The translations under genes were made by a program, and so were the position numbers. A DNA stretch of 64,000 bases. It comes from Pseudomonadota bacterium. GTDB taxonomy: Bacteria > Desulfobacterota > Desulfobulbia > Desulfobulbales > SURF-16. Shown here one piece after another: positions 6,013 to 25,540 of this stretch. Within the stretch, counting starts at the first letter, position 1. Each line of letters begins with the position of its first letter. The stretch covers positions 1 through 64,000 of the forward strand of contig JAHILF010000005.1 of the NCBI GenBank assembly GCA_018897105.1, given 5' to 3'. The notes under the pieces are model-generated. The model made no database searches and was not told where the DNA came from. It was given only the letters and a program-made list of their open reading frames with translations.

Positions 6013-7447
6013 CTTGATTTCCCTGCTGTTTTTCCTGGTTTGCCGCTATGGGCAGATAGATTGTAAATTTTGTCCCGATATTCACTTCACTCTTTACTTC
6101 AACATAGCCCCCATGTTTTTTGATAATACCGTAAACAATGGAAAGGCCAAGGCCGGTGCCGGCACCGACTTCCTTGGTGGTGTAAAAAGGATCGAAAATA
6201 TGGCCGATAATCTCCGGCGGTATGCCCGGTCCCGTATCGATGACGTTTATCTTGAGCAAGTTGTTCGGTGCGAGTCTGGCATTGAGGTAAATGAGCCCCC
6301 CCCCCTGGGGCATCGCCTGGATGGAGTTGACGAACAAGTTGATGAATACCTGCTGCAGTTTCTGCATATCACCCATGACGAGGGGGAGATCCTCGTGGAT
6401 ATAATTTTCAAACCAGATGGCGTTGATCATCAGCTGGTTGGCGATGAGCTTGTGGGAGGCTTCCACTACGTCCTTGATGCGGAGCGGTACGGAGGATGGA
6501 GCTTTGTCCCGGGAAAAATCGAGCAGGTTCTTGACAACCCCGGAGGCCCTCTCCGTCTGGCTGATGATGTCGGCAATGATCTCTTTTGTCTCTGTTTCGG
6601 AAAGGGCACCGTATTCTTCCATCAGGGTATCTGCTGACAGGGAAATGTTGTTAAGGGGGTTGTTTAATTCGTGGGCAATACCGGAGGAGAAGGTGCCGAT
6701 GGCGGCCAGCTTGCGGGATTGCACCAGCTGTTCCTTTCTGGCATCGATCTCGGCGACCATCTTGTTGAAGTTAATAATCAGGACGGAGATCTCATCCTGT
6801 ATTTTAGCGTTATCGGCAATGGGGGTGAATTTGTCATTGGCCACGTCACGTGTAGCCTTCTGGACAAAGGCGATGCGTTTCAATACGTTCCTGACCTGCA
6901 GCTGGAAGATGAGAATAAGGGTAAAGAAAAGGGTGCCCGTGATGCTGACAAATCGGTAAAAGAGCAGTTCGAGGCTGCTGTGCAGGCGGTCATGCTTGCG
7001 TTTGACCAGCTTCTCGGCGAACTCCACCATGTCCCGGCCTGATTCCCTGATCCCCAGGGAGTCTATCTCGGCGGAGTAACTGTATTTCCTGAATATTTCC
7101 TTGTATTGGTAGAAGGTGCCGAGAAAATTATCATATTCCTGCCTGTCCGTAACTTCAAGAATGTCATCCTCCAGGATGGCGATATGTGATTGGATCTTGG
7201 ACAGAAAAACTAAAATGGGGGAGACGTTGTCGGTCCCTATTCCGAAGAGGAAATTTTTCTCATACCGGCGTAACTCCAGTACATCGTCTAAAAAACTATG
7301 AAACTGCTCCAGGGCCATGAGTTTCTTTTTCAGGGAAAATATCTGCCATGAGTAATCAGGCAGCAGCAGGCCGCCAAACACCATAAACAGTATGGTGATA
7401 AAAATGAGCCTTCGTCTGATGGTATGTCTCCCAACGAGACGTTCCAT
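5993..7447 (-). CDS. Membrane sensor histidine kinase
   Basis: N-terminal TM, periplasmic region, HAMP-like region, H-box SSGIAHELNNPLNN, N/G boxes (DTGPGIPPEIIGHIFDPFYTTK, GTGLGLSIVYGI); overlaps the regulator gene. Confidence 0.9.
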   Translation of the reverse strand: MERLVGRHTIRRRLIFITILFMVFGGLLLPDYSWQIFSLKKKLMALEQFHSFLDDVLELRRYEKNFLFGIGTDNVSPILVFLSKIQSHIAILEDDILEVTDRQEYDNFLGTFYQYKEIFRKYSYSAEIDSLGIRESGRDMVEFAEKLVKRKHDRLHSSLELLFYRFVSITGTLFFTLILIFQLQVRNVLKRIAFVQKATRDVANDKFTPIADNAKIQDEISVLIINFNKMVAEIDARKEQLVQSRKLAAIGTFSSGIAHELNNPLNNISLSADTLMEEYGALSETETKEIIADIISQTERASGVVKNLLDFSRDKAPSSVPLRIKDVVEASHKLIANQLMINAIWFENYIHEDLPLVMGDMQKLQQVFINLFVNSIQAMPQGGGLIYLNARLAPNNLLKINVIDTGPGIPPEIIGHIFDPFYTTKEVGAGTGLGLSIVYGIIKKHGGYVEVKSEVNIGTKFTIYLPIAANQEKQQGNQDESRHN

Positions 7448-9049: not shown

Positions 9050-12000
9050 CTAAAAATCTCCCAGGAGTTCCAGCAGATCTTCCGCCCGCAGTTTATGGCT
9101 CATATCGCTGCCTTCAAGGAGGCTGTCCGCCAGTTCGCGTTTGTCATGATGTAATCTGATGATTTTTTCCTCAATGGTGTTTTTGGTCACAAGCCGGTAA
9201 ACAGTCACGGGACGCGTCTGGCCGATGCGATGCGCCCGATCCGATGCCTGATCCTCCACCGCCGGGTTCCACCATGGGTCCATGTGGATAACATAATCGG
9301 CCGCGGTGAGATTGAGCCCCAGGCCGCCTGCCTTGAGGCTGATGAGGAAGAGATCGCCGTCTCCCGCCTGGAACTCAGTCACCTGTTCCTGGCGTTTCAG
9401 CGTTGGAGTGGAGCCGTCAAGATATTTATAGGGGATATGGCGCTCGTCGAGAAAGGCGCGGAGAATGTGCAGGTGCCGGGCAAACTGGCTGAAAACCAGG
9501 GCCTTATGGCGGTTTTCGATAAGATCCGTGATGATGGTGCCGAAAAGCTCGAGTTTGGAGCTTTGAATGGTCGTATCCGGTTGGACAAGCTTGGGATTGC
9601 AGCAGGCCTGCCGCAGTTTCATGATTTCTGCCAGGATCTGCATATGCCGGTGGGAGGGAGAGGCGTCACTGCGTACGATTTTTTCCAGGGCGCGGAAGCG
9701 TAATGCTTCGTAGAAGGCTGTCTCTTCAGGGCTCATATTGACCTGGAGAGTGACTTCTGTCCGCGGCGGCAGTTCCTCCAGGACCTGACTTTTCAAACGT
9801 CGCAGGATGAAGGGCTGGATCAGTTTTTTTAATTTTTTCCGGGCATTCTTGTCCTTGTCTTTTTCAATGGCCAGGGCATAGCGCTGATTGAACTGATCCA
9901 GGGAACCGAGCAGGCCCGGGTTGATGAAGTTGAAAAGATTCCACAGTTCTCCCAGGTGGTTTTCGATGGGGGTGCCGGTGGTGATCATCTTGAAATTGCC
10001 ATCGAGTTCCATGGCTGCCCTTGAGCGCTTGGTGGCAATATTTTTGATGGCCTGGGCCTCGTCCAGCACGATGACCTGCCATTTTCGGGAAGAAAGGAGT
10101 GTGGTTTCCTGTTGCAGAAGACCGTAGCTGCAGATAAGCACGTCAAAAGGCGCAAGAATGTCAAGCAGCTGTTGCCGTTCTTTGCCACCGAAGATCACCG
10201 CCTGCAGGGTGGGAGCGAAACGGAGGATTTCCTCCTGCCAGTTCATGCAGACAGAGGTGGGGGCCACCACCAGGGAAGGGCCCTGGGTCGCCTCCTGCAG
10301 AATGATGCCCAGGCTCTGCACGGTTTTCCCCAGTCCCATATCGTCGGCCAGACAGGCGCCCACACCCCAGTGTTTGAGACGGGCCAGCCATTTGAATCCC
10401 TCAATCTGGTACTCGCGTAGTTCAGCCTGCAGGGTTGTCGGCACGTCACTGTGAAAGGAGCGTGATTCCCGGATGCGCTGCAGCTGCTCCTGCCAATGGC
10501 TGTCGGCGGTCAACTGAACGCCGCTTTCCGTGAAACCTTCCAGGGCGCAGGATGCCAGGGGATGCATCCGCCGTTTCTGGCCAAGGGGTTCGGTAAAGGA
10601 GGTTAATTCATCCAGCTGTTTGCGGAATTCCCGGGACAGGGCCATAAATTCGCCTTTGCCCAGCGGAATGAATCTGCCGGAATTGGCCTGGGTCAGTTCC
10701 AGCAGCGTTTTCATCTCCATCACCTTTTCCTGGTCGATGGTGAGCTGTCCTTCCAGTTCAAACCAGTTCTGTTTCTGTCTGATCTGCACATGGAAATCAT
10801 GAAACGAGGCATGATGCCGGATGGTGAGTTTTTCCCCTTCCGGCCACTCTATGATGACATCATCCCCCAGGTTCTGGATTTCAGAAAGAACCTCAAGGCA
10901 ATCCTGCAGATCTTCGATGAACCATTCGCCGTCCATTCCGCCCAGTCTGGCCAGGGTCGGGCATCTTTCTTCAATCTGCGTGCAGTTCTCTCTCTCCTTG
11001 TCAAGGTTGCGACAGGTTTGCAGGCGTTTGCCGTTGATTTCGGCCATGACGTTCATCGCCCCTTCGCCTGGGTAGAGATAGGGCCCGCCGGTGGCAAAGG
11101 GCTTAACCAGCATGGAGACTCTGAAGCCGTTACCCACCTGCAGCAGTTGCATGATGATCTTGTCCGCCGCAGGTACCTCTTCGATTTCTCTGGAGGTGGC
11201 GCCGATATCAGAGTGAATGGTCAGACAGGAGGAAAGATTGCCCAGGGTTTCAAGGGCCTGTTTTTTAGCGCCTTCCGGAACGATAAGGCCGTCGTCGCCG
11301 ATGATTGCCGCAATTTTGCGGTGTTTTTCGGAGATCTCGATAATCCGGAAGCGGGTGGGGGTTTCCCGTAAGGCCATTACTTTTTCGTCGCCGATGGGTG
11401 AGGAAAATTCCAGCAGCACCTTGTCATCTTTCTGGGTGGCATGCAGTTCCGGTTCCCCTCTGGTGAATTCAACCGGCACTGAGGTGTGTGTGCTGGAAAA
11501 GAGCAGGGGGTGACCGACTAGGGCGGACAGGGTCTCATCCATGTCAAATTCAAAGGATGTTTCATGGCTGAACTCCTTTTTGCGTAATGTTGCCCTGATT
11601 CTCTGGTCCTGCTCTGTGAGGAAAGAGAGATTTTCTCCGGCATACAGACGCTTCAAGGCCACGGAGCGTCCCTGGCTCCATTTGCCGCTGGCGGTAAGCT
11701 TCTGTTCCCTGGGGTAAATGGTAACAAAACCGTCCTTGAAGTCCACCATCCAGACCATTCTGTACTGGAGTTGACCATTCTCTTCATTTTCCAGGCTGAC
11801 GATATTCAGGGCCTTCAGAGCCCGTTGCCACGATTTCTCATGGGGAAGCACGGAGTGCAGAGAGGTGAGTGCCGATTCCCCGCAGATGGAGCGGCTGAAT
11901 TCTTGATACGACTCGATTTCGGTGGCTTGATAGAGCAGGGAAGCATATTCCATGGCCAGCCAGTCGTAGCCGTTTTCTCTGGCCCGGATGTAAAATTCAT

Positions 12001-13195
12001 GCAGTTCGTGGCGCTGGGCTGATTCCAGCGTGCCGTTGAGCCAGAAACTGCCTAGGCCCATGAACAGGGCCGTCACCGCATCTTTTTCCCCCTGTTGCCA
12101 TATCTGTGCAGTGGAGTCCAGCTTGAAGTTTTCCAGTTTTGCCTTGGTCACCTTCTGAAGAATCCTGTAGGCAGGAAGCAGGGGATTATTACTCTGCTCT
12201 GTTTCCAAGGTGGAGATGAAGGTGGCAATGATCGGATACTTTCTGTAGTCTCCTGATTTCAGCAGAGCCAGGATGAAGATGAGTCCTTCCATGCCGATGA
12301 AAAAAACGTTTTTCGACTCTTTTTTGAGGCGCAGATCGATCAGATCCTCCTGAAAGCTGGCGATGGCATCGCTGTTGCGGCCCTCCAGGAATTCCAGCCA
12401 GCCCCGCAGGCCGAAGGAATCAATATAATTTTTGCCTTCGGCGATTTTTTCACGGGCTGCCTCGATGTCGGCGCGTAGGAGCTGGTTGAGGATAAGCAGA
12501 TAATAGACTGAGGGCCAACCCGGTGGAGGGATGATCTTCAGGATGTTTTCATCGGAGAGATAGGCAAGGGGCTGGGCAAACGATTCAAGATGGAGCAGGC
12601 TTTTTCTGCTTATTTCATGCAGGCTGTGGAGCTGCAGGTGGGGCGGCAGGGTGCTGAACCACTGCGCCTCAAACGGGTTGTTGACGATCTCCACCAGGGG
12701 CGAGTGCTGTTCCGAGGTTTCCGGGCAGTCATAATAGCGCAGCAGATGGTCATTGAAATGATCGAAATCGTTCAGATACAGCCCGATGCGCATTTCCCGC
12801 AGATGGCGCTGGCCTTTCTGCAGCAGGGTATCGTACGCCTGCCCCTGGACGGGAAGATTTTTGGCGATGATGCGGGCCATGCGGGCAAAGTTGCCTGCGC
12901 TCAGGGCCTTTCTGCTGATGATTTCAACAATAAGGGGGTTGCACTGGCAGCGCCAGGTCGCGAGACCCTGTTCCTGCAGTTTGCGCAGCGCCGCTGATTG
13001 CGAACGCTTCTCACCGGGCATACTTTCGTCATCATGCCTGCCGGTGAATTCCCGAAAACAGCTGATGGTGGTTGCAGCGCCGGCGGGCTCGAAAACAATC
13101 GCGATGAACTGGAGCAGTTTCTGCTCCTCCGGCGCTAGAGCATCGTATTGTGAGAGCAGGTGCGTAATTTCCTGGGTGAATGAAAAATTTGCCAT
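9050..13195 (-). CDS. SNF2-family DEAD/DEAH helicase
   Basis: Motifs DDMGLGKTVQ, LDEAQAIKN, TGTPIENHLGELW, LVFSQF, SLKAGGLGLNLTAADYVIHMDPWWNPAVEDQASDRAHRIGQ; ~800 aa unassigned N-terminus. Confidence 0.92.
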   Translation of the reverse strand: MANFSFTQEITHLLSQYDALAPEEQKLLQFIAIVFEPAGAATTISCFREFTGRHDDESMPGEKRSQSAALRKLQEQGLATWRCQCNPLIVEIISRKALSAGNFARMARIIAKNLPVQGQAYDTLLQKGQRHLREMRIGLYLNDFDHFNDHLLRYYDCPETSEQHSPLVEIVNNPFEAQWFSTLPPHLQLHSLHEISRKSLLHLESFAQPLAYLSDENILKIIPPPGWPSVYYLLILNQLLRADIEAAREKIAEGKNYIDSFGLRGWLEFLEGRNSDAIASFQEDLIDLRLKKESKNVFFIGMEGLIFILALLKSGDYRKYPIIATFISTLETEQSNNPLLPAYRILQKVTKAKLENFKLDSTAQIWQQGEKDAVTALFMGLGSFWLNGTLESAQRHELHEFYIRARENGYDWLAMEYASLLYQATEIESYQEFSRSICGESALTSLHSVLPHEKSWQRALKALNIVSLENEENGQLQYRMVWMVDFKDGFVTIYPREQKLTASGKWSQGRSVALKRLYAGENLSFLTEQDQRIRATLRKKEFSHETSFEFDMDETLSALVGHPLLFSSTHTSVPVEFTRGEPELHATQKDDKVLLEFSSPIGDEKVMALRETPTRFRIIEISEKHRKIAAIIGDDGLIVPEGAKKQALETLGNLSSCLTIHSDIGATSREIEEVPAADKIIMQLLQVGNGFRVSMLVKPFATGGPYLYPGEGAMNVMAEINGKRLQTCRNLDKERENCTQIEERCPTLARLGGMDGEWFIEDLQDCLEVLSEIQNLGDDVIIEWPEGEKLTIRHHASFHDFHVQIRQKQNWFELEGQLTIDQEKVMEMKTLLELTQANSGRFIPLGKGEFMALSREFRKQLDELTSFTEPLGQKRRMHPLASCALEGFTESGVQLTADSHWQEQLQRIRESRSFHSDVPTTLQAELREYQIEGFKWLARLKHWGVGACLADDMGLGKTVQSLGIILQEATQGPSLVVAPTSVCMNWQEEILRFAPTLQAVIFGGKERQQLLDILAPFDVLICSYGLLQQETTLLSSRKWQVIVLDEAQAIKNIATKRSRAAMELDGNFKMITTGTPIENHLGELWNLFNFINPGLLGSLDQFNQRYALAIEKDKDKNARKKLKKLIQPFILRRLKSQVLEELPPRTEVTLQVNMSPEETAFYEALRFRALEKIVRSDASPSHRHMQILAEIMKLRQACCNPKLVQPDTTIQSSKLELFGTIITDLIENRHKALVFSQFARHLHILRAFLDERHIPYKYLDGSTPTLKRQEQVTEFQAGDGDLFLISLKAGGLGLNLTAADYVIHMDPWWNPAVEDQASDRAHRIGQTRPVTVYRLVTKNTIEEKIIRLHHDKRELADSLLEGSDMSHKLRAEDLLELLGDF

Positions 13196-13397: not shown

Positions 13398-14150
13398 ATG
13401 AAAATACACTTTTTAGGGGTTGGCGAAGCCTGTGATGAACGCTGTCCCAATACATCGCTTCATGTGACAGCGGGAAAGGGGCAGCGGTTCCTGCTGGATT
13501 GCGGTTTTACCACCCCCCATCTCTATTTTGCCCTGAGCAGCGATCAGGACGAACTGGACGCGGTCTGGATTTCTCACTTTCATGGTGATCATTTTTTCGG
13601 TATGCCACTGTTGCTTCTCAGATTCTGGGAAATGGGCCGGAGAAAAAAGCTGGTTATCGCCGGGCAGCAGGGCACCCGGGAAAAAATTACGTCGGCCATG
13701 GAGCTTGCCTACCCGGGCTTTCTGCCGCGGCTCAGGTACCACCTTGATTTTGTGGAAATAGAACCGGGGCAGGTCCGGGAGATTGCCGGCACGATCTGGA
13801 GTACAGCGGAAAACATCCATTCCCAGCGTTGTCTGTCCTTATGTATCGCTGACAGCTCGCACCGGATTTTTTACAGCGGGGATGGCCGGCCGACCAGGGA
13901 GACGGAAACCCTGGCTGCAGGATGTGATTTGATCGTCCACGAAGCCTTCAGGCTGGAGGGGGAAGTGGAAAACCACGGCAATATCATGAACTGTCTGGAA
14001 TTTGCCGGCCGCGCCGGGGGGAAACATCTTGCCCTGGTACATGTGGAGCGAACCTGCAGAGAAACCGCCAAGATAAAAGTTGCCGGGCTGGAACGTAGCA
14101 GCGGGCCCCATGTTTTTCTGCCGGAACCGGGTGATATGTTTGTGTTATGA
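13398..14150 (+). CDS. MBL-fold hydrolase (RNase Z-like)
   Basis: HFHGDHFFG metal motif, YSGDGRPT, HEAF. Confidence 0.8.
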   Translation: MKIHFLGVGEACDERCPNTSLHVTAGKGQRFLLDCGFTTPHLYFALSSDQDELDAVWISHFHGDHFFGMPLLLLRFWEMGRRKKLVIAGQQGTREKITSAMELAYPGFLPRLRYHLDFVEIEPGQVREIAGTIWSTAENIHSQRCLSLCIADSSHRIFYSGDGRPTRETETLAAGCDLIVHEAFRLEGEVENHGNIMNCLEFAGRAGGKHLALVHVERTCRETAKIKVAGLERSSGPHVFLPEPGDMFVL

Positions 14151-14325
14151 GCCTCTTGCAAAAGGAACGTCGTAGCGAGATCGAGAGAAAAATATTCTGT
14201 GCAAGGATGAGTTGTGAAACCGCCCGGAAGCGTAGCAGTGCTACGGTGAAGACGATTTCACCAGGAAGACGCCGCACAGGATATTTTTAGCCGATCGGAG
14301 TAGATGTTCATTTTGCAAGAGGCTC
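14149..14325. repeat. 177-bp long-hairpin element with perfect 15-bp terminal inverted repeats
   Basis: GAGCCTCTTGCAAAA (14149-14163) and TTTTGCAAGAGGCTC (14311-14325); internal complementary arms AAAAATATtCTGTGC / GCACAGgATATTTTT and GTAGCAGTGCTAC hairpin. Confidence 0.8.
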
Positions 14326-14358
14326 GTATAAGAAGAATTCTTTTATAGACGTGAAGAA

Positions 14359-15417
14359 ATGGAAAAGATGATGAAATTCCAAGGGCTCGGAGTGGTCAAG
14401 GCTGCGGCCTGGGCCACCTTGCTGGTGTGCATGACGCTCATTTTCAAAACCCTGGGCTTCCTGTTTGTCCCTTTTTTCATCTCGCTGCTGCTCTGCTACG
14501 CCCTGGGTATTCCCATGGAAATCCTGCAGCGTCTCAAAGTCCCCAGCTCTCTGCGCATCATCATCGTGGTTTTTTTCATCCTCACGGTTCTCTATCTCAT
14601 CGGCAACATGGTAAGCCTTAATATTAAAGAATTTTACCTGCAGCTTCCCGAGTTTGAGAAGAAATTCTGGGACTATGCCGCGTATCTGCTCAAATGGTTC
14701 AATATCAGCCCAGATCAGGCCCGGGAAATGTATGACTCGGTCATCAAGAGCTTCAAACAGGTCGACCTGCAACCCATCGGCAGCATGGTGCAGCGCTTGA
14801 GCGGTTCCTTTTTTTCCTTTTTCGGTAACATGTTCTGGGTGATTCTGATCATGGTGTTCATGCTGGCCGAGCGGGAGAGTATTACCCAGCGCCTGGTCGA
14901 GGGGTTGGGGCCTAAAAATGCCGGGCCGGCGCTTGAGGTCATCGGCCGGATCAACAAGGCGGTGCAGAGCTATCTCGGCCTGAAGACCCTGATCAGTCTG
15001 TTGACCGGAGTGCTGGTCACCGTCGCCCTGGTTCTTTTTGACGTTCCTTTTGCCCTGCTCTGGGGCGTGCTGGCCTTTCTGCTGAATTTCATCCCCAATA
15101 TCGGCTCGCTGATAGCCGTGCTGCCGCCGGTGGCCATCACCCTTTTTCAGTTCGGCTCTTTCGGTAAGGCCGCCCTGGTGGCGCTTATCCTGGTGCTCAT
15201 CCAGATGGTGGTGGGTAATATCCTGGAACCGAAAGTCATGGGCAGGGGTCTTAACCTCAGTCCCCTGGTGGTTCTGCTCTCCCTGGTTTTCTGGGGATGG
15301 ATGTGGGGAATTGCCGGCATGCTGCTGTCCGTTCCCCTGACCGCCGCCTTGAAAATCGCCTTTGAACAGCTTGACTCCACTCGAGCAGTGGCTATATTAA
15401 TGAGTGCTAAGAAATAA
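14359..15417 (+). CDS. AI-2E family transporter
   Basis: Multiple TM segments; LLWGVLAFLLNFIPNIGSLIAVLPP, VVGNILEPKVMGRGLNLSPLVVLLSL. Confidence 0.9.
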   Translation: MEKMMKFQGLGVVKAAAWATLLVCMTLIFKTLGFLFVPFFISLLLCYALGIPMEILQRLKVPSSLRIIIVVFFILTVLYLIGNMVSLNIKEFYLQLPEFEKKFWDYAAYLLKWFNISPDQAREMYDSVIKSFKQVDLQPIGSMVQRLSGSFFSFFGNMFWVILIMVFMLAERESITQRLVEGLGPKNAGPALEVIGRINKAVQSYLGLKTLISLLTGVLVTVALVLFDVPFALLWGVLAFLLNFIPNIGSLIAVLPPVAITLFQFGSFGKAALVALILVLIQMVVGNILEPKVMGRGLNLSPLVVLLSLVFWGWMWGIAGMLLSVPLTAALKIAFEQLDSTRAVAILMSAKK

Positions 15418-15542
15418 GAGCTTATTTATGTATGGACAAACACTTAAGATGATTTTATAAAAATTCTGGGCGCAGCAGCGCCGCATGGTTTGCTTAACCA
15501 AGACTTTCAACCCTTTTTTACATATTACGGAGGAGCAAGAAA

Positions 15543-16259
15543 ATGTACGGAAATGGCTTTAATAGAACGGTTACCGTTTCTCAGGCCGAAACCCAGGCCT
15601 CAACAATTTTCCTGGCCAAGGTTTTCAACTGGATGGCCATAGGGCTGGGTCTCACCGGCCTGATGGCCTTTCTGGTGGCGAACTCGGAAACTGCCATGCA
15701 GATTTTCATCTTTAACCCCATGATGCGCTGGGGCATCATTATTGCCGAGCTGGGGCTGGTTTTTTATCTGTCAGCCAGGGTGATGCGTCTGTCTCCCCAG
15801 GTGGCAACCGCCCTCTTTCTCATCTACTCGGCACTTAACGGCGTCACTCTGTCCGTCATCCTGCATATTTATACAGCCACTTCCGTGGCCGCAACCTTCT
15901 TTATCACCGCTGGCATGTTCGGCGCCATGGCCATTTACGGCATGGTAACCAAGAAGGATCTCTCCGGCCTGGGCTCCTTCATGTTCATGGGGCTTATCGG
16001 CATCATCATTGCCTCGGTGGTCAACATCTTCCTGCAGAGCTCCATGATGGCCTGGATCGTTTCCGGCCTTGGCGTGATTATCTTCACCGGGCTCACCGCC
16101 TATGACGTGCAGAAAATCACCCAGATCGGCGCCTCCGGCATTATGCGGGAGGGCGAAGGCGCCATCCGCAAGGGGGCGATCATGGGCGCCCTGGCCCTGT
16201 ATCTTGATTTCATCAACCTGTTCCTTAGCCTGCTGCATTTCCTCGGCAACCGGGATTAG
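15543..16259 (+). CDS. Bax inhibitor-1/YccA family membrane protein
   Basis: Seven TM-like segments, GLTAYDVQKI, ALALYLDFINLFLSLLHFLGNRD terminus. Confidence 0.92.
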   Translation: MYGNGFNRTVTVSQAETQASTIFLAKVFNWMAIGLGLTGLMAFLVANSETAMQIFIFNPMMRWGIIIAELGLVFYLSARVMRLSPQVATALFLIYSALNGVTLSVILHIYTATSVAATFFITAGMFGAMAIYGMVTKKDLSGLGSFMFMGLIGIIIASVVNIFLQSSMMAWIVSGLGVIIFTGLTAYDVQKITQIGASGIMREGEGAIRKGAIMGALALYLDFINLFLSLLHFLGNRD

Positions 16260-16297
16260 TTTTTGACCGCCTGGATTTTGCCGCGGAGTAATTTGTA

Positions 16298-16319
16298 GGG
16301 GCGGTTCGCGAACCGCCCC
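16298..16319. repeat. 22-bp perfect palindrome
   Basis: GGGGCGGTTCGCGAACCGCCCC just downstream of the BI-1 gene. Confidence 0.75.
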
Positions 16320-16390
16320 CCTTGTATCTAAGCGGGATGATTGCATGGGTATGACACGGGTACAAATGAATGATTGCCAATTGTCATTCC

Positions 16391-16530
16391 TGTAGGGGCA
16401 CCCCTTGTGGGTGCCCTGGGAGCGGGCTACCCGTTGTGTGTCACTGTCCAGGCAGTTCGAGTTCGGGTACTGCATGATGGCCTATTCGGTACCCCCCTGG
16501 GATAGGGCACCCACAAGGGGTGCCCCTACA
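16391..16530. repeat. Inverted repeat with perfect 27-bp arms
   Basis: TGTAGGGGCACCCCTTGTGGGTGCCCT (16391-16417) vs AGGGCACCCACAAGGGGTGCCCCTACA (16504-16530). Confidence 0.85.
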
Positions 16531-16696
16531 TCCCCATCCGCTTTCTTCCTTTTTTTTTCTCTTTCCTGCCATCCCATAGCAGTTTTATCTTGCAAATTCT
16601 TTGATTGCGGGGTTTTTTCTGAGCAATCATTCATTTTCAGGGAGGTTGCCATTCTCCCTGTTTCCCGCTAAACAGCCAACCCGGAAAGAGAATCGG

Positions 16697-19621
16697 ATGA
16701 GTACTGCCAGGCCCACGGTGTTCATCAGTTACAGCCACCTGGATGAGGAGTGGAAAAATCAGCTTCTCCCGCATCTCAAGGCCTTTGAGCAGCAGGGTGA
16801 TCTGCTGCTCTGGCATGACCGCAGGATCGACACCGGCGCGGACTGGTATCCTGAGATCCAACAGGCGGTGGAGGGGGCTCGGGTGGCGGTCTGCCTCATC
16901 ACCAAAAATTTCCTGGCCTCGGATTTTATTACCAAGGAGGAGGTGCCGGCCCTGCTCAAACGGCGGGAGGCAGAAGACCTGACCATCCTGCCCCTGCTGG
17001 TCTCACCCTGCACCTGGCAGCGTATTCGCTGGCTCAAGGGCATCCAGATGTTTCCCCCGGACAACAAGTGTCTTGCCGCCATAAAAGATGAAACAGAGTG
17101 TGAGCAACTGCTCGTGGATTTTGCGGTCAAGGTTGTGGATCGGGCATTGGCAACGGGCCAGAATCATGAGGTTTCCGTTTTTGAAAATCTGCTGGGTAAC
17201 GACGTTTCGGAAGGGGTGACGGACCGGGCGCTGCCGGGCCTCTTGGGTAAGGATGTTCACGCTTACCAGGATCTCTTGGTCAACATTGACTTTTCGGCAG
17301 AACCACCCAGCCAATCGAGTTTCCCTACCTCGCTCTTAGAATTATTGCTGCCTCCAGTGGAGATCTCCCGTCTGCCCGTGACCGGGGCTGAACTCTTTGG
17401 CCGGGAGGCGGAATTGGAATTGCTGGACAGCGTCTGGGAGCAGGGCAAAAGTAATGTCGTCTGTTTTGTGGCCTGGGGCGGGGTGGGCAAATCCACCCTG
17501 ATCAACAAATGGCTGACGGAGATGGCTGCGGACAGCTATCGCGGTGCTGCCAATGTCTTTGGCTGGTCTTTTTACAGCCAAGGAACCGGCGAACGGGTCA
17601 CCTCGGCGGACCGCTTCATTGCCGATGCCTTGGCCTGGTTCGGCGACCCGGATCCTATGACCGGCTCTCCCTGGGACAAGGGCCAGCGGCTGGCAGGCCT
17701 CATCAAGCAGCAGCGGACGCTGCTGGTGCTTGACGGCCTGGAGCCACTGCAGGCCGAGCATGATTTTGACAAGGGCCGCATCAAGGACCCCGGCCTGGCG
17801 GCCCTGGTTGCGGAACTGGCCAGGAATAATCCCGGCCTCTGCCTCATCACCAGCCGGGAAGAGGTGGCCGATCTCCGTCGTTTCCCGCAAACTGTTCAGG
17901 CACGAAACCTGGAGCAGATTTCCGCCGCAGCGGGCCGGGCTCTGCTGCGGGTTGGCGGGGTGCAGGGCAAGGACCTGGAGCTGGAGGAGGCTTCGAGAGA
18001 ATTCGGCAACCATGCCCTGGCCGTTAAGCTCCTGGCCGCCTATCTCCATGAGATCCCCGGCCACCATATCAAAGAGGCGGCCGACATCCCTGACCTGGAA
18101 ATCCCCGAGGAGCATGGTCGCCAACCCCGGCGGGTCATGGCTGCCCTGGTCGGTCTTTTAGGGGATTCACCGGAGGTCGAGTACCTGCGGATTCTTGGCC
18201 TCTTTGACCGCCCGGCGGACAAAGAGGCCCTGGCCGCGCTGCTCACCCCGCCTGCCATCCCGGATCTCACCGGTCGCATCATGGCCGTTAAGGAGGAAGA
18301 CCGCCATGAATGCCTCACTCGCCTACGGCGCCTGGGTCTCCTTGCCCCGGCAAGCAGCCAACGACCCGGTGATCTGGACTGCCACCCCCTGGTGCGGGAG
18401 CATTTTTGTGACCTTCTTCGGGAGCAATTCCCCGCAGCCTGGCAGCAGGGCAACCTACGACTCTATGAGTATTATAAAAGTGTTGCCAAGGAATACCCGG
18501 AAACCATCGAGGAGATGACCCCTCTCTTTTACGCCTGCGCCCATGGTTGCCGGGCTGGTCGCCAGCAGGAGGCGTTAGATAAGGTTTATTGGAAACGAAT
18601 TAGTAGAAAGCAGGAAGCTTACATTAATCATAAACTCGGCGCTTTAGGCTCTGATTTGGCTGCCCTTGCTAATTTTTTTGAGTTACTGTGGGAACGGCCC
18701 ATTGCGGGGCTAACCGAGAAGGGTTGGTTTTTTCTCTTAGGTTGTGCAGGTTTCAACCTTCGAGCCTTAGGCCAGCTGAGCGAGGCCTCTAGGCCAATGG
18801 AAGCTAGTCTGGATGCTGCTGTGGTAGGGAAAGACTGGGAAAACGCCGCCATAGCTGCCGCCAACCTTAGCGAACTCTGTCTTGCATTAGGCAAGGTGGA
18901 CCAGGCTATGAAGTATGGGGAGCGATCGGTGGAATTGGCCGACTGGAGCGGTGATGTTTTCCAGCGCTTGGCCAGACGCACCACCCATGCATCTTCCCTC
19001 CATCAGGCTGGCCAATTAGCTGTGGCAGAGGAATTATTCCACCAAGCTGAGGCCATACATCGGGAACGCCAACCCCTGTATCCCTTTCTCAACTCCATGC
19101 CAGGCTTCTTATACTGCGACCTACTTCTCAATCTACATAAGCCGACCGAGGCTTTGGAACGAGCTGAGAAAGCATTGGGGGAGAGCAAAACGCATGGAGT
19201 CCTTCGTGATATCGGCCTGGATTACCTCACCCTAGGTCGAGCTTGCTTTTGGCTGGGTGATTCAGATACTGCTGCCACTCACCTGGACCGTGCTATGGAC
19301 TTCCTGCGCAAGGCAAATGAACAGGAGTTGCTGGTTCGCGGCCTCCTAGCCCAGGCCGCCTTCTGGCGGGAGCAAGGGCAGTTCCATGCCGCCCGCCGGG
19401 ACTTGGATGAGGTTCTGGAGATCGTCGAGCGGTGCGGCATGCGGCTCTTCCTCACCGACTATCATCTGGAAAGCTGCCGCCTGCTGCTGGCTGAAAACGA
19501 CCTGCCCTCCGCCCGCGGTCACCTGGGCCTGGCCAAAAAACTGGTCGAGGAAACCGGCTACCACCGTCGTGACCGGGAGGTAGAGGAACTTGAAAAGCTG
19601 TTGGCCGATGTCAAACGATGA
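16697..19621 (+). CDS. TIR-STAND (NB-ARC-like)-TPR protein
   Basis: TIR: PTVFISYSHLDEEW...LITKNFLASDFITKEEVPALL; NB-ARC: GREAELELLD, AWGGVGKSTLINKWL (Walker A), TLLVLDGLEPL (Walker B), LCLITSREEV, GNHALAVKLL; C-terminal TPR-like helices. Start ATG 16697 after GGAAAGAG. Confidence 0.9.
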   Translation: MSTARPTVFISYSHLDEEWKNQLLPHLKAFEQQGDLLLWHDRRIDTGADWYPEIQQAVEGARVAVCLITKNFLASDFITKEEVPALLKRREAEDLTILPLLVSPCTWQRIRWLKGIQMFPPDNKCLAAIKDETECEQLLVDFAVKVVDRALATGQNHEVSVFENLLGNDVSEGVTDRALPGLLGKDVHAYQDLLVNIDFSAEPPSQSSFPTSLLELLLPPVEISRLPVTGAELFGREAELELLDSVWEQGKSNVVCFVAWGGVGKSTLINKWLTEMAADSYRGAANVFGWSFYSQGTGERVTSADRFIADALAWFGDPDPMTGSPWDKGQRLAGLIKQQRTLLVLDGLEPLQAEHDFDKGRIKDPGLAALVAELARNNPGLCLITSREEVADLRRFPQTVQARNLEQISAAAGRALLRVGGVQGKDLELEEASREFGNHALAVKLLAAYLHEIPGHHIKEAADIPDLEIPEEHGRQPRRVMAALVGLLGDSPEVEYLRILGLFDRPADKEALAALLTPPAIPDLTGRIMAVKEEDRHECLTRLRRLGLLAPASSQRPGDLDCHPLVREHFCDLLREQFPAAWQQGNLRLYEYYKSVAKEYPETIEEMTPLFYACAHGCRAGRQQEALDKVYWKRISRKQEAYINHKLGALGSDLAALANFFELLWERPIAGLTEKGWFFLLGCAGFNLRALGQLSEASRPMEASLDAAVVGKDWENAAIAAANLSELCLALGKVDQAMKYGERSVELADWSGDVFQRLARRTTHASSLHQAGQLAVAEELFHQAEAIHRERQPLYPFLNSMPGFLYCDLLLNLHKPTEALERAEKALGESKTHGVLRDIGLDYLTLGRACFWLGDSDTAATHLDRAMDFLRKANEQELLVRGLLAQAAFWREQGQFHAARRDLDEVLEIVERCGMRLFLTDYHLESCRLLLAENDLPSARGHLGLAKKLVEETGYHRRDREVEELEKLLADVKR

Positions 19622-19693
19622 AATCAGTCGTTATTTGACGAAGACAATACGAGAATATCCCATCATCACACCCCAAGTATGGAGGATCCGGAA

Positions 19694-22600
19694 ATGATCA
19701 AGCTCATCGTTGAAGGCAAACCGCATGACACCACAACAACAATTCCTGATGATCTGCGGGATCTTCTGGTCGGCGAGCGCTGCGAGCTGGTTGATTTTGA
19801 CCTCGATACCAGAAGTCGCGGTGTGGAAGAGGCTCCACCTCCAATTGAAATCAAGGCCAATGAAGACGACCTGTTGGAACTGGAGCTGGAGGGCGGTGCA
19901 CGGATCTGGATGAGCGTGGCTGAATACCGTGACCACATCGCCGCCCGCTCAATGCGCGGCCCGCAGGAAAAGGGGACGGTCCGGATCAATGCCAGCCTGC
20001 CGCAAATGACCGAGGAGCGCGGGATCTTGCAGTGGGTTGTCAAGAGGCTGCGTTTCCTGGGTTTTGATGTGGCCGAGGGTGCGGCCGAAAAACTGGCCGA
20101 ACGGATCGACACCAGAAAAGGCCTGGAGGGACTCTATAGCTGTTCCATCGACAAGGAGAAACTGGAGCTGTACGAGCACCCGGACTTTCCGAGCGGGGCT
20201 GATCCGTTCCTGGTCTTTATCCACGGCACCATGTCCAGCACGGAAGGCAGTTTCGGCGGATTGTGGAGCGAGCAGCCCCAGGTACGCCGGCGGCTGGCCG
20301 AACATTATGACGGCCGGACCTACGCCTTTGAGCATAAGACCTTTTCCGAAAGCCCCATTGTCAACGCCCTGGCCTTGGCCAAGGCCCTGCCTGACGGAGC
20401 GCGCCTTCACTTGGTGAGCCACTCCCGGGGGGGCATGATCGGCGAACTCCTGTGCCGAGGCGGCAGGTTATTGACAGATGGGGCCACAGCGCTCTTTGAT
20501 GATACTGACTTTAAACTGTTCAAGGCCGCTGACCAGGCCGTGCCGCGTAGCGCCCTGCGGGAACTGGAGGCGGTGCTGCGGCAGAAACGGTTTACCGTTG
20601 AACGGTTCGTGCGGGTGGCCTGCCCGGCCCGGGGCACAACCCTGGCGTCAAAGCGGCTTGACCGCTATCTCTCACTGTTGAACCTGGGGCTCTCATCCCT
20701 GGACAAGAGCGGTTGGGCAGGGGATATCTTGTGGCTGGTGGGGGCAATTATCAAAGAACGCACCGACCCCCGCGTCATGCCGGGTCTGGAGGCGATGATG
20801 CCCGAGTCCACCACTGTCAAACTGTTGAACCGGTCCGATGTGACGGTTACCGGAGCGCTGCGGGTCATTGCCGGAGATTACGACGGCGGCAGCATACTCG
20901 GCTGGGTGGCCAATTGGGCAACGGAAGGATTTTTCGGCTCCGAGAACGACACGGTGATCAACACCCCGTCCATGTATGGCGGCGCTCTCCGGCAGGAAAA
21001 CCTTGGCTGGTATTACTTTGCCCAGGGCAGTAATGTTTGGCATTTCAGCTATTTCAGAGAGCAGATCACAGCTGGACTTCTGGCCGACGGTCTGCTCCAG
21101 GATGGGACGGAGAGGGCCGGGTTCCTGCCCATCTCTCAGGCCCCGCATCGGCACGACCCCATCGGCCGGGGCGTTGCTCTGGATTTCGCCGTTGAAGGGT
21201 GGGGCGCTCCCCTGGGGTGCAAAGCACCGTCAGCCAACGGCAGAAAACCGCTTGTGCTTCTGGTGCCGGGGATCATGGGGAGTCACCTGCAGGTCGCGGA
21301 CAGGAGGGTCTGGCTGGATTTTCTGGCCATTGCCCGCGGCAAATTGAAAGAACTCGACATTGATGCGTCGGGGGTGACCACGGACGGCGCCATGAAGCTG
21401 TCCTATGGAGACTTTGGTTCCTTTCTCTCAGCAAAAAATGAGGTCATTTACTTCCCCTATGACTGGCGGCGGCCGCTACGGGAACAGGGTACGGAATTTG
21501 CCCGTTTCATGGGCCAGGTGCTCGACGCGGCAGCGGCAAACGGCAGGCCTGTGCGAATCGTGGCCCACTCCATGGGTGGACTCCTGGTGCGCATGGCAGC
21601 GGTTCTCTCCAATCCCGAGCGGAACGGCAACCGCTGGTGGGAACGTTTCAGCGCGGCCGGCACAACCAACCGACTGGTCATGGCCGGTACACCCAATAAA
21701 GGCTCGTGGACCGTGCCCTACGCTCTCACTGGACGTGATTCCATTGTCAAGGTGCTGGCCGCCGTGGATTTGAGTCATGATAGAGAGGAGATCCTGCGAT
21801 GTATTTCCGGCTTTACCGGATTTCTGGAGATGCTTCCAGACGACGGGGATGGCCACTGCTTCGACATTGATAGCTGGGAGAAGTGGCAGAAGGCGGACGG
21901 GGAGGAATGGCCCCTTCCCGATGCCGCTTTACTCGCTGCCTGCCGTGAAAACCGCAGGCTTCTTGACCGATTTGATTTTACCGGAGATGCCGGAATAATC
22001 CGTTACGTAGCCGGCTGTGAGGATGAAACTCCGTCCGGGGTCCGGATCGTTAACGCGAAGGGCAGGAATGAACTCATTTTTGACCGCTCCACTAAGGGGG
22101 ACGGCCGGGTCCTCTGGGCCACGGGTATCCCTAAAGGAATCAAGACATGGTACGTGAATGCCGCCCACGGCGATATTTTGAACCAGGAAGATGCCTTCAA
22201 TGGCCTGTCTGAGATCATCGAATACGGTGAGACCAGCCTGCTGCCCACTGAACCGCCGGCCCGGCGTGCGCTTGCGGCTGGGGAAGAGATTATGGTTGAC
22301 CGGGGGTTGCCGATGTATCCGGATCAGAACATGCTTATCCGTGCCGCTTTGGGGGGGAGGATTCTTCCACCCAGGGATCGGAGGACCGAGAAATTTCCTG
22401 CATTCAAGGTCGTGGTCTGCCATGGGGATTTACTGGCAGCTAGGAATCCGGTGGCTGTTGGGCATTATTTCGGTGATACCATCAACGGCAGCGAGGCGGT
22501 CCTGGACCGGCGGCTCGACGGGCTGCTCACCCGGCGTTATCAACTCGGAATTTATACCGGTGCCGAGGGGAGCGTCAATGTCTTTGTTCATACGGAAAAC

Positions 22601-25123
22601 AAGAAAAAATATACCGCCATCATTATCGGTTTGGGTCAGGTCGGCGAGCTGACCCAAGCCCGACTTGCCAACTGCTTTGCCAGGGCGATCCTGGAATTTG
22701 CCACCTCGCCTGCTGTAGATGCCATTGGGCCACAGGGGGTTGAACTTTCCATCAGCACCCTGCTCATCGGCAGCGGTTCAGGCTGGGGTCTCGGGGTTCA
22801 GGAAAGCGTTCGTGGCTTGGTTGACGGTGCCCGGCGCGCCAATATGAAACTTGCAGAATTGGACGGCGCACCGATTCGGCTGCGTGAGTTGGAACTCCTT
22901 GAGATTTTTGAGGATAGAGCGCTCATCGCCCTGCGCGCTGTTCGCAGCCTTGCCACCCTCGGGGGGCTCGCAGGGGTCGAGTACGAGGCCTCCCTGCGCT
23001 GTGGAACCGGCGGACTTCAGCGGGCGGTCTGCGAGGATGGCGGCGACTGGTGGCAGCGACTCAAGGTGGAGATGAATGACAAGGACGAGTTGAAGTTTAC
23101 CTCCCTGACCGGCCTGGCCCGCATCGAGGAAAGGGGGCAGCCTACCCAGCTGGCCCTGGTGGATCGTCTGGTGAAGAATGCCGTAACCAATTCGTCGATC
23201 TCAACCCGGGAGATGAACGCCATTTACAACCTTTTGTTCCCCAACTCATTGAAAATGAGTGCCCCGGACCAGGGCGATCTGCTGCTGATGCTCGACCCCA
23301 AAACCGCAGGTTATCCATGGGAGATGATGTATGTCGGAGAAGGGACGCAGAAGGAGCCCCTGGCCTTACGGGCCGGTTTGATCCGGCAGCTCAGTCTGCC
23401 TGAATTCCGGGAACGGCCGGTGTACAGCTCACGGCAACATGCCCTGGTCATTGCCGATCCAGACCTGAAGTCAAGCAAATTTCCCGAGCTTTCCGGCGCC
23501 CTGCAGGAAGGGAAAGCGGTGGTCAGGATTCTTGAGCAGAAGGGATTTCAGGTGGAAAGGCAGTTGCAAAGCGACCCGCTTTCGATTGCCGGCGCCCTTT
23601 TCGCCGGCGACTACCGTATTCTCCATCTGGCCGGACACGGGGTTTTTGAGTATCCTATTACCAGTAAAGGCAGGGATGGCACCAGCAGAACCAGCCTTGT
23701 CACCGGCATGGTTCTGGAATGGCCGACAAATGCAGAAACCGAAAAGGATGATGCCCGGCAGGACCCGGTCCTGTTGACCGCCGTGGAAGTTCGTCAGATG
23801 ATCGCCGTGCCGGAGTTGGTCTTTATCAACTGCTGTTTTCTGGGCCAGATGGAGGGCCTTGACAAGTGGTTTGCCAAACGGCATCTCTTTGCCGCCAGCC
23901 TTGCTGCTAAATTTATCAGCATGGGGGTGCGAGCCGTGGTGGCCGCTGGCTGGGCAGTGAACGACAGCGCAGCCGAAATATTCGCCACTTCCTTTTACAA
24001 TGCCATGTTCGATGGTCACACCTTTGGCGATGCGGTTCGCGCCGCCCGTTGCAAGGCCCATGAGCAGGTGGGGAGTTGCAATACCTGGGCCGCATACCAG
24101 TGTTATGGCGATCCTGGTTTTCGTTTCCGGGAGAACCATGCGGCACGTCCGAGAAAGTTTTTCCTTGCCCCCCGAGAGGTGGTGTGCGAGTTGCGCGCCT
24201 TGGGCGAGAAGAAAAGGGATGCGCGGGGCAACCGGCTGAGCTCCGCTGACCTGACACGAGATCTGGAGCAGCTTGAACGTCTTATTCCACATGAATGGAT
24301 GATACAAAATGGCGAGATCCGGGCCGCCCTAGCCGCTGTTTATGCCGAATTGGGAGATAACGACCGGGCCATCGAACACTACGAGGCCGCTGAGATATGC
24401 CGGGACGGCGGCTGTACGGTTCGAGATCTGAACCAGTTGTCCAACCTGCGGGTCCGGCGGGCGCAAGATTATCCGCCTGAGCAGGCGGATAAGGAAATAC
24501 TTAGGGAGATAGAAATTCTCACCAGAAGGGCGGGCGAATTGGGTGAGACCCCCGATATCTGCACCATAACCGGCAGTGCGGTAAAGCGGCTGTTGCTGAA
24601 GGTGGCCGACAAGAAACCGACAAAGAAGAAAGAACTGGCGGACCTCATCCGTTTGATGGAGGAATGGTATGAGAAGGCAGTGAAAAGTGACGGTGAATTG
24701 GATCCCTATGCCGCCATGAACTCAATCTGTGCCGCCATCATCGAGGAGTGCTGGGCGGTATCGCCATCGCCTAACCAGGAAAAATTGGCAAAGATCCGCA
24801 ACCTCCTTGATCAAGCGACTATGGCCGGGCAGCGCCTGGAAGAAAAGGACCCGCGTTTCTGGAACGGGGTTCATGCCATCGACGCCGATCTCTACCGTTT
24901 TATTCTGACCCGGATGAAGGGAGGATTGGAGATCGATGGTGTTCCGGATACAAAGGAATTAAATGAGCGGTATAACAATCTGGCGGACAAATACGGTACC
25001 CCCCGGAAGATGGGTTCGGTTGCGGATCAGATCAAATTTGTCGCTCGTTTCCTGCCGGAGAAGGAGATGAAAGAGGTTAAGCACGACCTTGAGAAATTGG
25101 CAGAAAATTTGAGAAAGGGATAG
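19694..25123 (+). CDS. Giant alpha/beta-hydrolase (two elbows) - CHAT protease protein
   Basis: FVFIHGTMSS, HLVSHSRGGM, VLLVPGIMGSHL, RIVAHSMGGLL; CHAT region with ILHLAGHGVFEY (His) and ELVFINCCFLGQ (Cys); start ATG 19694 after GGAGG (ORF extends to 19679). Confidence 0.88.
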   Translation: MIKLIVEGKPHDTTTTIPDDLRDLLVGERCELVDFDLDTRSRGVEEAPPPIEIKANEDDLLELELEGGARIWMSVAEYRDHIAARSMRGPQEKGTVRINASLPQMTEERGILQWVVKRLRFLGFDVAEGAAEKLAERIDTRKGLEGLYSCSIDKEKLELYEHPDFPSGADPFLVFIHGTMSSTEGSFGGLWSEQPQVRRRLAEHYDGRTYAFEHKTFSESPIVNALALAKALPDGARLHLVSHSRGGMIGELLCRGGRLLTDGATALFDDTDFKLFKAADQAVPRSALRELEAVLRQKRFTVERFVRVACPARGTTLASKRLDRYLSLLNLGLSSLDKSGWAGDILWLVGAIIKERTDPRVMPGLEAMMPESTTVKLLNRSDVTVTGALRVIAGDYDGGSILGWVANWATEGFFGSENDTVINTPSMYGGALRQENLGWYYFAQGSNVWHFSYFREQITAGLLADGLLQDGTERAGFLPISQAPHRHDPIGRGVALDFAVEGWGAPLGCKAPSANGRKPLVLLVPGIMGSHLQVADRRVWLDFLAIARGKLKELDIDASGVTTDGAMKLSYGDFGSFLSAKNEVIYFPYDWRRPLREQGTEFARFMGQVLDAAAANGRPVRIVAHSMGGLLVRMAAVLSNPERNGNRWWERFSAAGTTNRLVMAGTPNKGSWTVPYALTGRDSIVKVLAAVDLSHDREEILRCISGFTGFLEMLPDDGDGHCFDIDSWEKWQKADGEEWPLPDAALLAACRENRRLLDRFDFTGDAGIIRYVAGCEDETPSGVRIVNAKGRNELIFDRSTKGDGRVLWATGIPKGIKTWYVNAAHGDILNQEDAFNGLSEIIEYGETSLLPTEPPARRALAAGEEIMVDRGLPMYPDQNMLIRAALGGRILPPRDRRTEKFPAFKVVVCHGDLLAARNPVAVGHYFGDTINGSEAVLDRRLDGLLTRRYQLGIYTGAEGSVNVFVHTENKKKYTAIIIGLGQVGELTQARLANCFARAILEFATSPAVDAIGPQGVELSISTLLIGSGSGWGLGVQESVRGLVDGARRANMKLAELDGAPIRLRELELLEIFEDRALIALRAVRSLATLGGLAGVEYEASLRCGTGGLQRAVCEDGGDWWQRLKVEMNDKDELKFTSLTGLARIEERGQPTQLALVDRLVKNAVTNSSISTREMNAIYNLLFPNSLKMSAPDQGDLLLMLDPKTAGYPWEMMYVGEGTQKEPLALRAGLIRQLSLPEFRERPVYSSRQHALVIADPDLKSSKFPELSGALQEGKAVVRILEQKGFQVERQLQSDPLSIAGALFAGDYRILHLAGHGVFEYPITSKGRDGTSRTSLVTGMVLEWPTNAETEKDDARQDPVLLTAVEVRQMIAVPELVFINCCFLGQMEGLDKWFAKRHLFAASLAAKFISMGVRAVVAAGWAVNDSAAEIFATSFYNAMFDGHTFGDAVRAARCKAHEQVGSCNTWAAYQCYGDPGFRFRENHAARPRKFFLAPREVVCELRALGEKKRDARGNRLSSADLTRDLEQLERLIPHEWMIQNGEIRAALAAVYAELGDNDRAIEHYEAAEICRDGGCTVRDLNQLSNLRVRRAQDYPPEQADKEILREIEILTRRAGELGETPDICTITGSAVKRLLLKVADKKPTKKKELADLIRLMEEWYEKAVKSDGELDPYAAMNSICAAIIEECWAVSPSPNQEKLAKIRNLLDQATMAGQRLEEKDPRFWNGVHAIDADLYRFILTRMKGGLEIDGVPDTKELNERYNNLADKYGTPRKMGSVADQIKFVARFLPEKEMKEVKHDLEKLAENLRKG

Positions 25124-25222
25124 AAAGGAGGTCTGTTTTTTTATACTCTTTATCAGGCCAAGTCATTGTCTGGTAAAAAGATTGCCGCGAAATCCGGATT
25201 TTTTGAGCAAAAAGGAGAGACC

Positions 25223-25540
25223 ATGAGCACGCCTGTGAAAAAGATCGATACCCCTTTCGGGGAGTATGCGCCGCGGGTTGCCAGCCACGACGAACTGGAG
25301 CGCGCGGCAGCGGTCATGGGGGACGCGGTGGAGGCAATCGCCCGGGTCAACCATGACAGGTGGGCGGCGGAGAGGATTTTCCAGGGGTGGCGCTACGGGG
25401 AAGAGCGGGATGATGCCCGGAAGCTGCATCCGGATCTCGTCCCGTATGAGCTCCTCTCCGAGGCGGAAAAACGAATCGACGTGGAGGGCGCCAAAGCGAT
25501 CATTGCCGAACTGATCAGGCTTGGAATTCTTCGGCAATGA
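25223..25540 (+). CDS. RyR domain-containing small protein
   Basis: IARVNHDRWAAERIFQGWRYGEERDDARKLHPDLVPYELLSEAEKRIDVEGAKAIIAELIRLG matches the RyR repeat pattern (W..R...GW.YG..RDD..K.HP.LVPY..L...EK..D); SD AAAGGAGA upstream of ATG 25223. Confidence 0.88.
   Translation: MSTPVKKIDTPFGEYAPRVASHDELERAAAVMGDAVEAIARVNHDRWAAERIFQGWRYGEERDDARKLHPDLVPYELLSEAEKRIDVEGAKAIIAELIRLGILRQ

Follow-up and report, generated by a model that had tools for sequence, protein, structure and literature searches.

What does the long gene at 19694..25123 (plus strand) of the window, the whole 64,000-nucleotide stretch of DNA analysed here, encode, and does its product act by itself or together with its neighbours? 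A sequence-only reading had proposed a single polypeptide in which two alpha/beta-hydrolases and a CHAT protease form a zymogen or self-processing lipase effector that attacks membranes. The gene, here called the effector gene, lies in one stop-free open reading frame at 19679-25123 (plus strand) that encodes 1814 amino acids from its first ATG, a protein of about 1,810 residues, and the single intact chain was thereby borne out. The start at 19694 (Met6) is preceded 8 nt upstream by a Shine-Dalgarno sequence, GGAGG (19681-19685), and Met6-IKLIVEG lines up with the starts of homologues, such as MAIQLIIPG. For both reasons 19694, also the start preferred earlier, is a better start than 19679; residues are nevertheless counted from 19679 throughout. 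Neither a signal peptide nor a transmembrane helix was visible in the effector, whose top 19-residue hydropathy is 1.6, and on these grounds a secreted toxin was rejected. NCBIfam and PHROG gave no match to the protein, and none was found in the phage records searched; a phage gene was rejected for lack of a PHROG or phage-record match.

Pfam searches resolved the chain into a DUF7379 hydrolase, an LCAT-like hydrolase, a Peptidase_M17_N-like domain, a CHAT domain and a TPR-S domain, and all five matches exceed the curated cut-offs, those of TPR-S and M17_N barely. Domain boundaries are based on sequence profiles, including profiles compared with solved structures. The motifs quoted previously are all in place (FIHGTMSS at residue 180, SHSRGG at 247, LVPGIMGS at 528, AHSMGG at 629, HLAGHG at 1316 and FINCCFLGQ at 1382), and the domains that contain them match beyond chance (DUF7379, E 1.7e-30; CHAT, 2.1e-29; LCAT, 1.5e-6). 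When 27 diverse full-length relatives were searched one by one, DUF7379, LCAT, CHAT and TPR-S were each matched in all 27, and Peptidase_M17_N was recognised in four. The earlier inventory had thus identified the hydrolases and the CHAT domain correctly, but had missed the Peptidase_M17_N match (927-1009), the TPR-S domain (1562-1682) and the TIR-STAND-TPR and RyR genes that lie upstream and downstream of the effector.

Conservation of the predicted active sites was assessed by aligning 83 full-length proteins, namely the window protein, a paralogue from its own genome, and proteins from two genomes of the phylum and 79 named contigs. Hydrolase 1 (residues about 178-478; 20210..21112, plus strand) matches PF24096 (DUF7379) with 106.8 bits against a cut-off of 33, and each residue of its predicted triad, S249, D424 and H455, is present in 83 of 83 sequences. 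Its profile weakly aligns with thermostable bacterial lipases, including their ENDGIVNTVSM acid motif. Hydrolase 2, which is LCAT/LPLA2-like (residues about 518-862; 21230..22264, plus strand), matches PF02450 (LCAT) with 28.1 bits against a cut-off of 21. Its predicted triad consists of S631 (79/83), D808 (83/83) and H830 (83/83). The profile of hydrolase 2 matches group XV phospholipase A2 (8e-9; 4x90) and LCAT, and its oxyanion motif, nucleophile elbow, GDG(R/T)V Asp and catalytic His align with those of group XV phospholipase A2, although the Asp/His segment alone scores weakly. The LCAT-type likeness proposed for this domain is consequently upheld at all three catalytic residues, whereas the effector domain differs from LCAT and group XV phospholipase A2 in being bacterial, in lacking a signal peptide and in forming one part of a large fusion. 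S631 is lost from the own-genome paralogue, where it is Gly, and from three other proteins, so hydrolase 2 may be dispensable. The Asp and His of both hydrolases, on which the sequence-only reading had staked its proposal, were found at sequence level in every aligned protein, and the chain is predicted to contain two serine hydrolases with complete conserved triads beside a CHAT His/Cys dyad, an arrangement kept across many species.

The CHAT protease domain (residues about 1165-1490; 23171..24148, plus strand) matches PF12770 with 103.3 bits against a cut-off of 24. The predicted dyad residues H1320 and C1386 are both present in 83 of 83 proteins; the named relatives were fetched with a pair of short patterns that contained NCC and YDW, respectively, so the count for C1386 is partly circular, while that for H1320 is unbiased, the other catalytic residues lying outside the patterns. 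The catalytic Cys is most likely C1386, the second Cys of FINCC. The CHAT profile also matches 8tl0 (E 8.5e-4), which is a SAVED-CHAT protein (PMC11417357). Membership of the SAVED-CHAT group was rejected, since Pfam found no SAVED domain in the effector and a weak match to the PADLOC SAVED_CHAT model (E 0.017; residues 1405-1476) falls inside the CHAT domain. Between hydrolase 2 and CHAT lies the Peptidase_M17_N-like domain (residues about 895-1140; 22361..23098, plus strand; PF02789, E 4e-5, just above the cut-off), and the family profile matches the N-domain of a cytosol aminopeptidase, 3jru (E 9e-4). Peptidase_M17_N domains have a macrodomain-like fold, and this one could possibly be a ligand-binding domain. 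The TPR-S (tetratricopeptide repeats-sensor) domain (residues 1562-1682; 24362..24724, plus strand) matches PF20308 only marginally in the window protein (28.5 bits against 27.6; E 2.4e-6), and its best E among the 27 relatives is 6.9e-14. Burroughs and Aravind (2015, 2020) reportedly predicted TPR-S and RyR domains to be sensors of nucleotide signals in threshold-dependent prokaryotic immune systems.

Relatives were recovered with a four-sequence alignment as the query; a scan with the single protein recovered none. The species genomes searched encode them at 405 or more sites, in hundreds of species; the count is a floor because only stretches that matched the two short patterns were tested. 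Going by record titles, the phyla represented are Pseudomonadota, Desulfobacterota, Nitrospirota, Acidobacteriota, Bacteroidota, Chloroflexota and Verrucomicrobiota. In plasmid records the relatives carry the product name 'CHAT domain-containing protein', and one plasmid homologue sits in a restriction/Fic gene cluster. A shorter architecture, LCAT + M17_N + CHAT, also exists (P0005). Azotobacter chroococcum DSM 2286 encodes two full-length members in tandem (L063, 1943-7435 and 9587-15211). The genome of the window carries a second effector copy (L035, G000:C52); beside it (about 14128-16750 and 6854-7399), TIR and STAND-TPR segments occur in different frames and a further TIR open reading frame seemingly lacks its N-terminus; these are frameshifts or assembly errors.

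Genes around the effector were counted by seeded profile (HMM) searches of all open reading frames at the 83 loci, in 1.25 Mb of flanking DNA in which many flanks are short. A C14 caspase was found in 23 of the 83 loci, each less than 400 bp upstream and on the same strand, with none elsewhere in the flanks, and all 23 keep the SGHG and C-H-S-G motifs. A clostripain (C11) gene immediately precedes the effector on its strand in three loci, and astacin peptidases lie upstream in two. A TIR gene adjoins the effector in 14 loci from several separate branches of the tree, and Pfam added one further TIR. TPR-S proteins near the effector lie mostly within 4 kb. At least one of C14, C11, TIR and a TPR-S protein is present in 48 loci, and none in the remaining 35, partly owing to short flanks. 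Directly downstream, 19 loci have an adjacent M15 peptidase gene on the same strand (for example L117, 15289-15948), and in many of them the two genes overlap by 4 bp at the effector stop; this M15-type peptidase is probably a further component of the system, perhaps a cell-wall enzyme. Near the effector at L117 (15965-17509) and at 10 other loci, a protein of about 515 amino acids with no Pfam match also recurs. Across the FastTree tree of the family, partners of a given type are scattered, suggesting that exchange of partners has taken place. Because the partners are caspase, clostripain, TIR, TPR-S and M15 genes, we read the setting of the effector as that of a conflict system.

In the window, the gene upstream of the effector (16601..19621, plus strand) encodes a TIR-STAND(NACHT-like)-TPR protein, a predicted sensor or switch and maker of an NAD-derived signal, which matches TIR_2 (E 1.6e-14), NACHT (2.1e-5) and TPR_12 (1.9e-12) in Pfam and the PADLOC ThsB model (E 4.8e-21). 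Its true start is probably Met33 (MSTARPTVFISYSH), at about 16697; no strong alignment that fixes the catalytic Glu of its TIR domain was obtained. The two genes are on the same strand and 57 nt apart. The third gene of the set, which begins about 100 nt downstream of the effector, encodes a 105-aa RyR-domain protein (25223..25540, plus strand; PF02026, E 5.7e-19). GC content is 55-61% across the set, 51-56% to its left and 43-52% to its right.

In three congeners (G298, G300 and G301) the corresponding site was located by its flanking genes, Bax1-I and type II secretion F, and read. G298 keeps the TIR-STAND-TPR gene at 77% amino acid identity, and its nucleotide similarity to the window (84%) reaches position 19607, the end of that gene, and resumes at 25210 with the RyR gene; the exchanged stretch is therefore the effector segment only. 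Between these two genes, G298 carries first a calcineurin-like phosphoesterase (497 aa, E 9.4e-9) and then a CHAT protein (E 1.4e-23), which is not significantly similar to the window effector in a pairwise comparison (L138; G298:C108:35000-47200, reverse strand). Since TIR-STAND and RyR genes are kept around a different middle, the effector gene behaves as an exchangeable cassette. In G300 the set is absent save the C-terminal half of the RyR gene (L139, G300:C56, about 1384-1626), so loss of the set there is likely and the remnant is probably the scar of a lost island. No gene of the set was found at this site in G301, and no full-length effector copy in the other members of the genus searched.

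Taken together, it appears moderately probable that the effector is an exchangeable part of a conflict system triggered by the TIR-STAND protein, most likely one of anti-invader cell suicide. The gene setting is that of conflict or suicide systems. The sequence-only reading had taken the protein alone, but the evidence makes it an exchangeable member of a system of several genes. At the level of sequence, support comes from three complete conserved predicted active sites, a predicted sensor domain, the caspase, TIR and TPR-S partners and wholesale replacement of the effector in a congener; support for the pairing with TIR comes from gene position and from a single informative congener, not from many. 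In the proposed mechanism, the TIR-STAND-TPR protein would use its STAND/TPR part to detect an invader or damage, and its TIR domain would then produce an NAD-derived signal that the TPR-S domain of the effector, the M17_N-like domain and the RyR protein could read, singly or in combination. CHAT would thereby be unlocked to cut target proteins, possibly the partner caspase where one is present and possibly the linkers of its own chain, and both serine hydrolases would attack lipids or lipoproteins, resulting in membrane damage.

Several known systems resemble this locus in part. The threshold-dependent immune systems, which have TPR-S, RyR and calcineurin-type components, share TPR-S and RyR as predicted sensors, and a calcineurin-like effector is present in the G298 cassette. 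In VMAP conflict proteins, caspase-superfamily domains always have an alpha/beta-hydrolase gene adjoining (Kaur et al. 2020, PMC7159879). The MoxR-vWA ternary systems likewise place a caspase-superfamily protease beside an alpha/beta-hydrolase, and in one locus (L037) DUF7379 and CHAT are encoded by separate neighbouring genes, the CHAT one with TCAD7; the window effector, in contrast, fuses hydrolase and protease and adds an LCAT-type hydrolase and TPR-S. Membership was rejected, since Pfam found neither a MoxR AAA+ ATPase nor a vWA gene among the window neighbours scanned on both sides. In type IV Thoeris, the TIR product N7-cADPR activates a caspase-like protease (PMC12847820), and the window operon similarly has a TIR gene beside a caspase-superfamily protease effector. 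However, the window TIR is fused to STAND-TPR, the effector has two lipase-type domains and TPR-S, and Thoeris membership was rejected because no ThsA-type effector domain (SIR2-SLOG or TM-macro) was found in the effector or the neighbours scanned. A CHAT His/Cys protease is also shared with the defence system Borvo (PMC10952713), with Csx29/TPR-CHAT (Craspase), in which the protease is switched on allosterically (PMC10028731), and with SAVED-CHAT, the latter two being sensor-controlled, whereas the effector lacks SAVED and its CHAT lies mid-chain in a multi-enzyme protein. No Cas families were found among the window neighbours scanned.

The self-processing zymogen originally proposed, in which the main or only substrate of CHAT is its own chain and cleavage of linkers frees the lipases to lyse the membrane, is somewhat unlikely. 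Protease and lipases are indeed fused, the hydrolases and CHAT remain together throughout the long form of the family (27/27), and three poorly conserved stretches, at residues about 480-520, 870-900 and 1500-1530, could carry cut sites. Yet no conserved cleavage site was found, the substrate cut by a known CHAT protease is a separate protein, Csx30 (PMC10028731), and fusion is dispensable for the pair, since DUF7379 and CHAT also occur as separate genes. The 23 caspases and three clostripains directly upstream of the effector would fit a protease relay, in which CHAT cleaves and activates the neighbouring caspase or clostripain, or is itself cleaved and activated by it, while the hydrolases target acyl groups on proteins, or lipoproteins, instead of bulk membrane. 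The window locus itself, with no adjacent caspase or clostripain and with TIR or other genes taking that place, makes such a relay doubtful.

It is likewise improbable that the TIR-STAND gene and the effector merely share a defence hotspot with no joint function. The 57-nt spacing on one strand, the adjacency of TIR genes in several separate branches and the different CHAT-containing cassette between the TIR-STAND and RyR genes of the congener, which fits a shared controller, all argue against it, even though hotspots gather unrelated systems and STAND genes occur in few homologue loci. In favour of mere neighbourhood, the more distant relatives of the TIR-STAND gene read in three further genomes of this phylum did not have the effector downstream; the two genes are thus not always paired. 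A housekeeping enzyme of lipid or protein turnover, outside any conflict, is very unlikely: the hydrolase folds are all widespread in metabolism, but the effector occurs patchily, with no full copy in the congeners searched, it has caspase, TIR and TPR-S partners, and it is found on plasmids and islands.

We therefore return to the TIR-STAND-triggered conflict system as the preferred reading. A wider and more tentative extension of it, possible rather than probable, is a modular immune chassis, with TIR-STAND-TPR and RyR fixed at one site while the middle is swapped whole, a signal-gated CHAT controlling two lipases, and caspase, clostripain and TIR partners interchangeable in hundreds of species. 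The parts are of known kinds; what is new is that they are joined in one chain that has two conserved hydrolases, together with the breadth of this family and the exchange of cassettes at one site, and a limited literature search found no description of the fusion or the exchange. Caspase-like proteases and alpha/beta-hydrolases recur together in bacterial conflict systems. Here protease and hydrolases are welded into one chain with a sensor, so that the link between protease and lipase can be addressed by point mutants of one gene. The locus of the sister species, with the same controllers and another cassette, is a natural swap that raises the question of whether TIR-STAND triggers are effector-agnostic.

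Additional features were noted upstream of the set. The minus-strand gene at 9050-13195 encodes a 1381-aa SNF2 helicase with a strong match to the PADLOC DpdE/ZorD models and a below-cut-off match to the SCO1167 helicase family; it is probably an ordinary helicase. An RNase Z-like MBL-fold protein, encoded at 13398-14150, has a sub-threshold match to the Anti-Pycsar protein Apyc1. Just upstream of the TIR-STAND gene lies a perfect 27-bp inverted repeat, TGTAGGGGCACCCCTTGTGGGTGCCCT, with arms at 16391-16417 and 16504-16530 and 86 nt between them. Genome-wide, 21 copies were found at no more than 2 mismatches, often as facing pairs, compared with 0 for a reversed control, and the repeat is a dispersed REPIN/MITE-like element.
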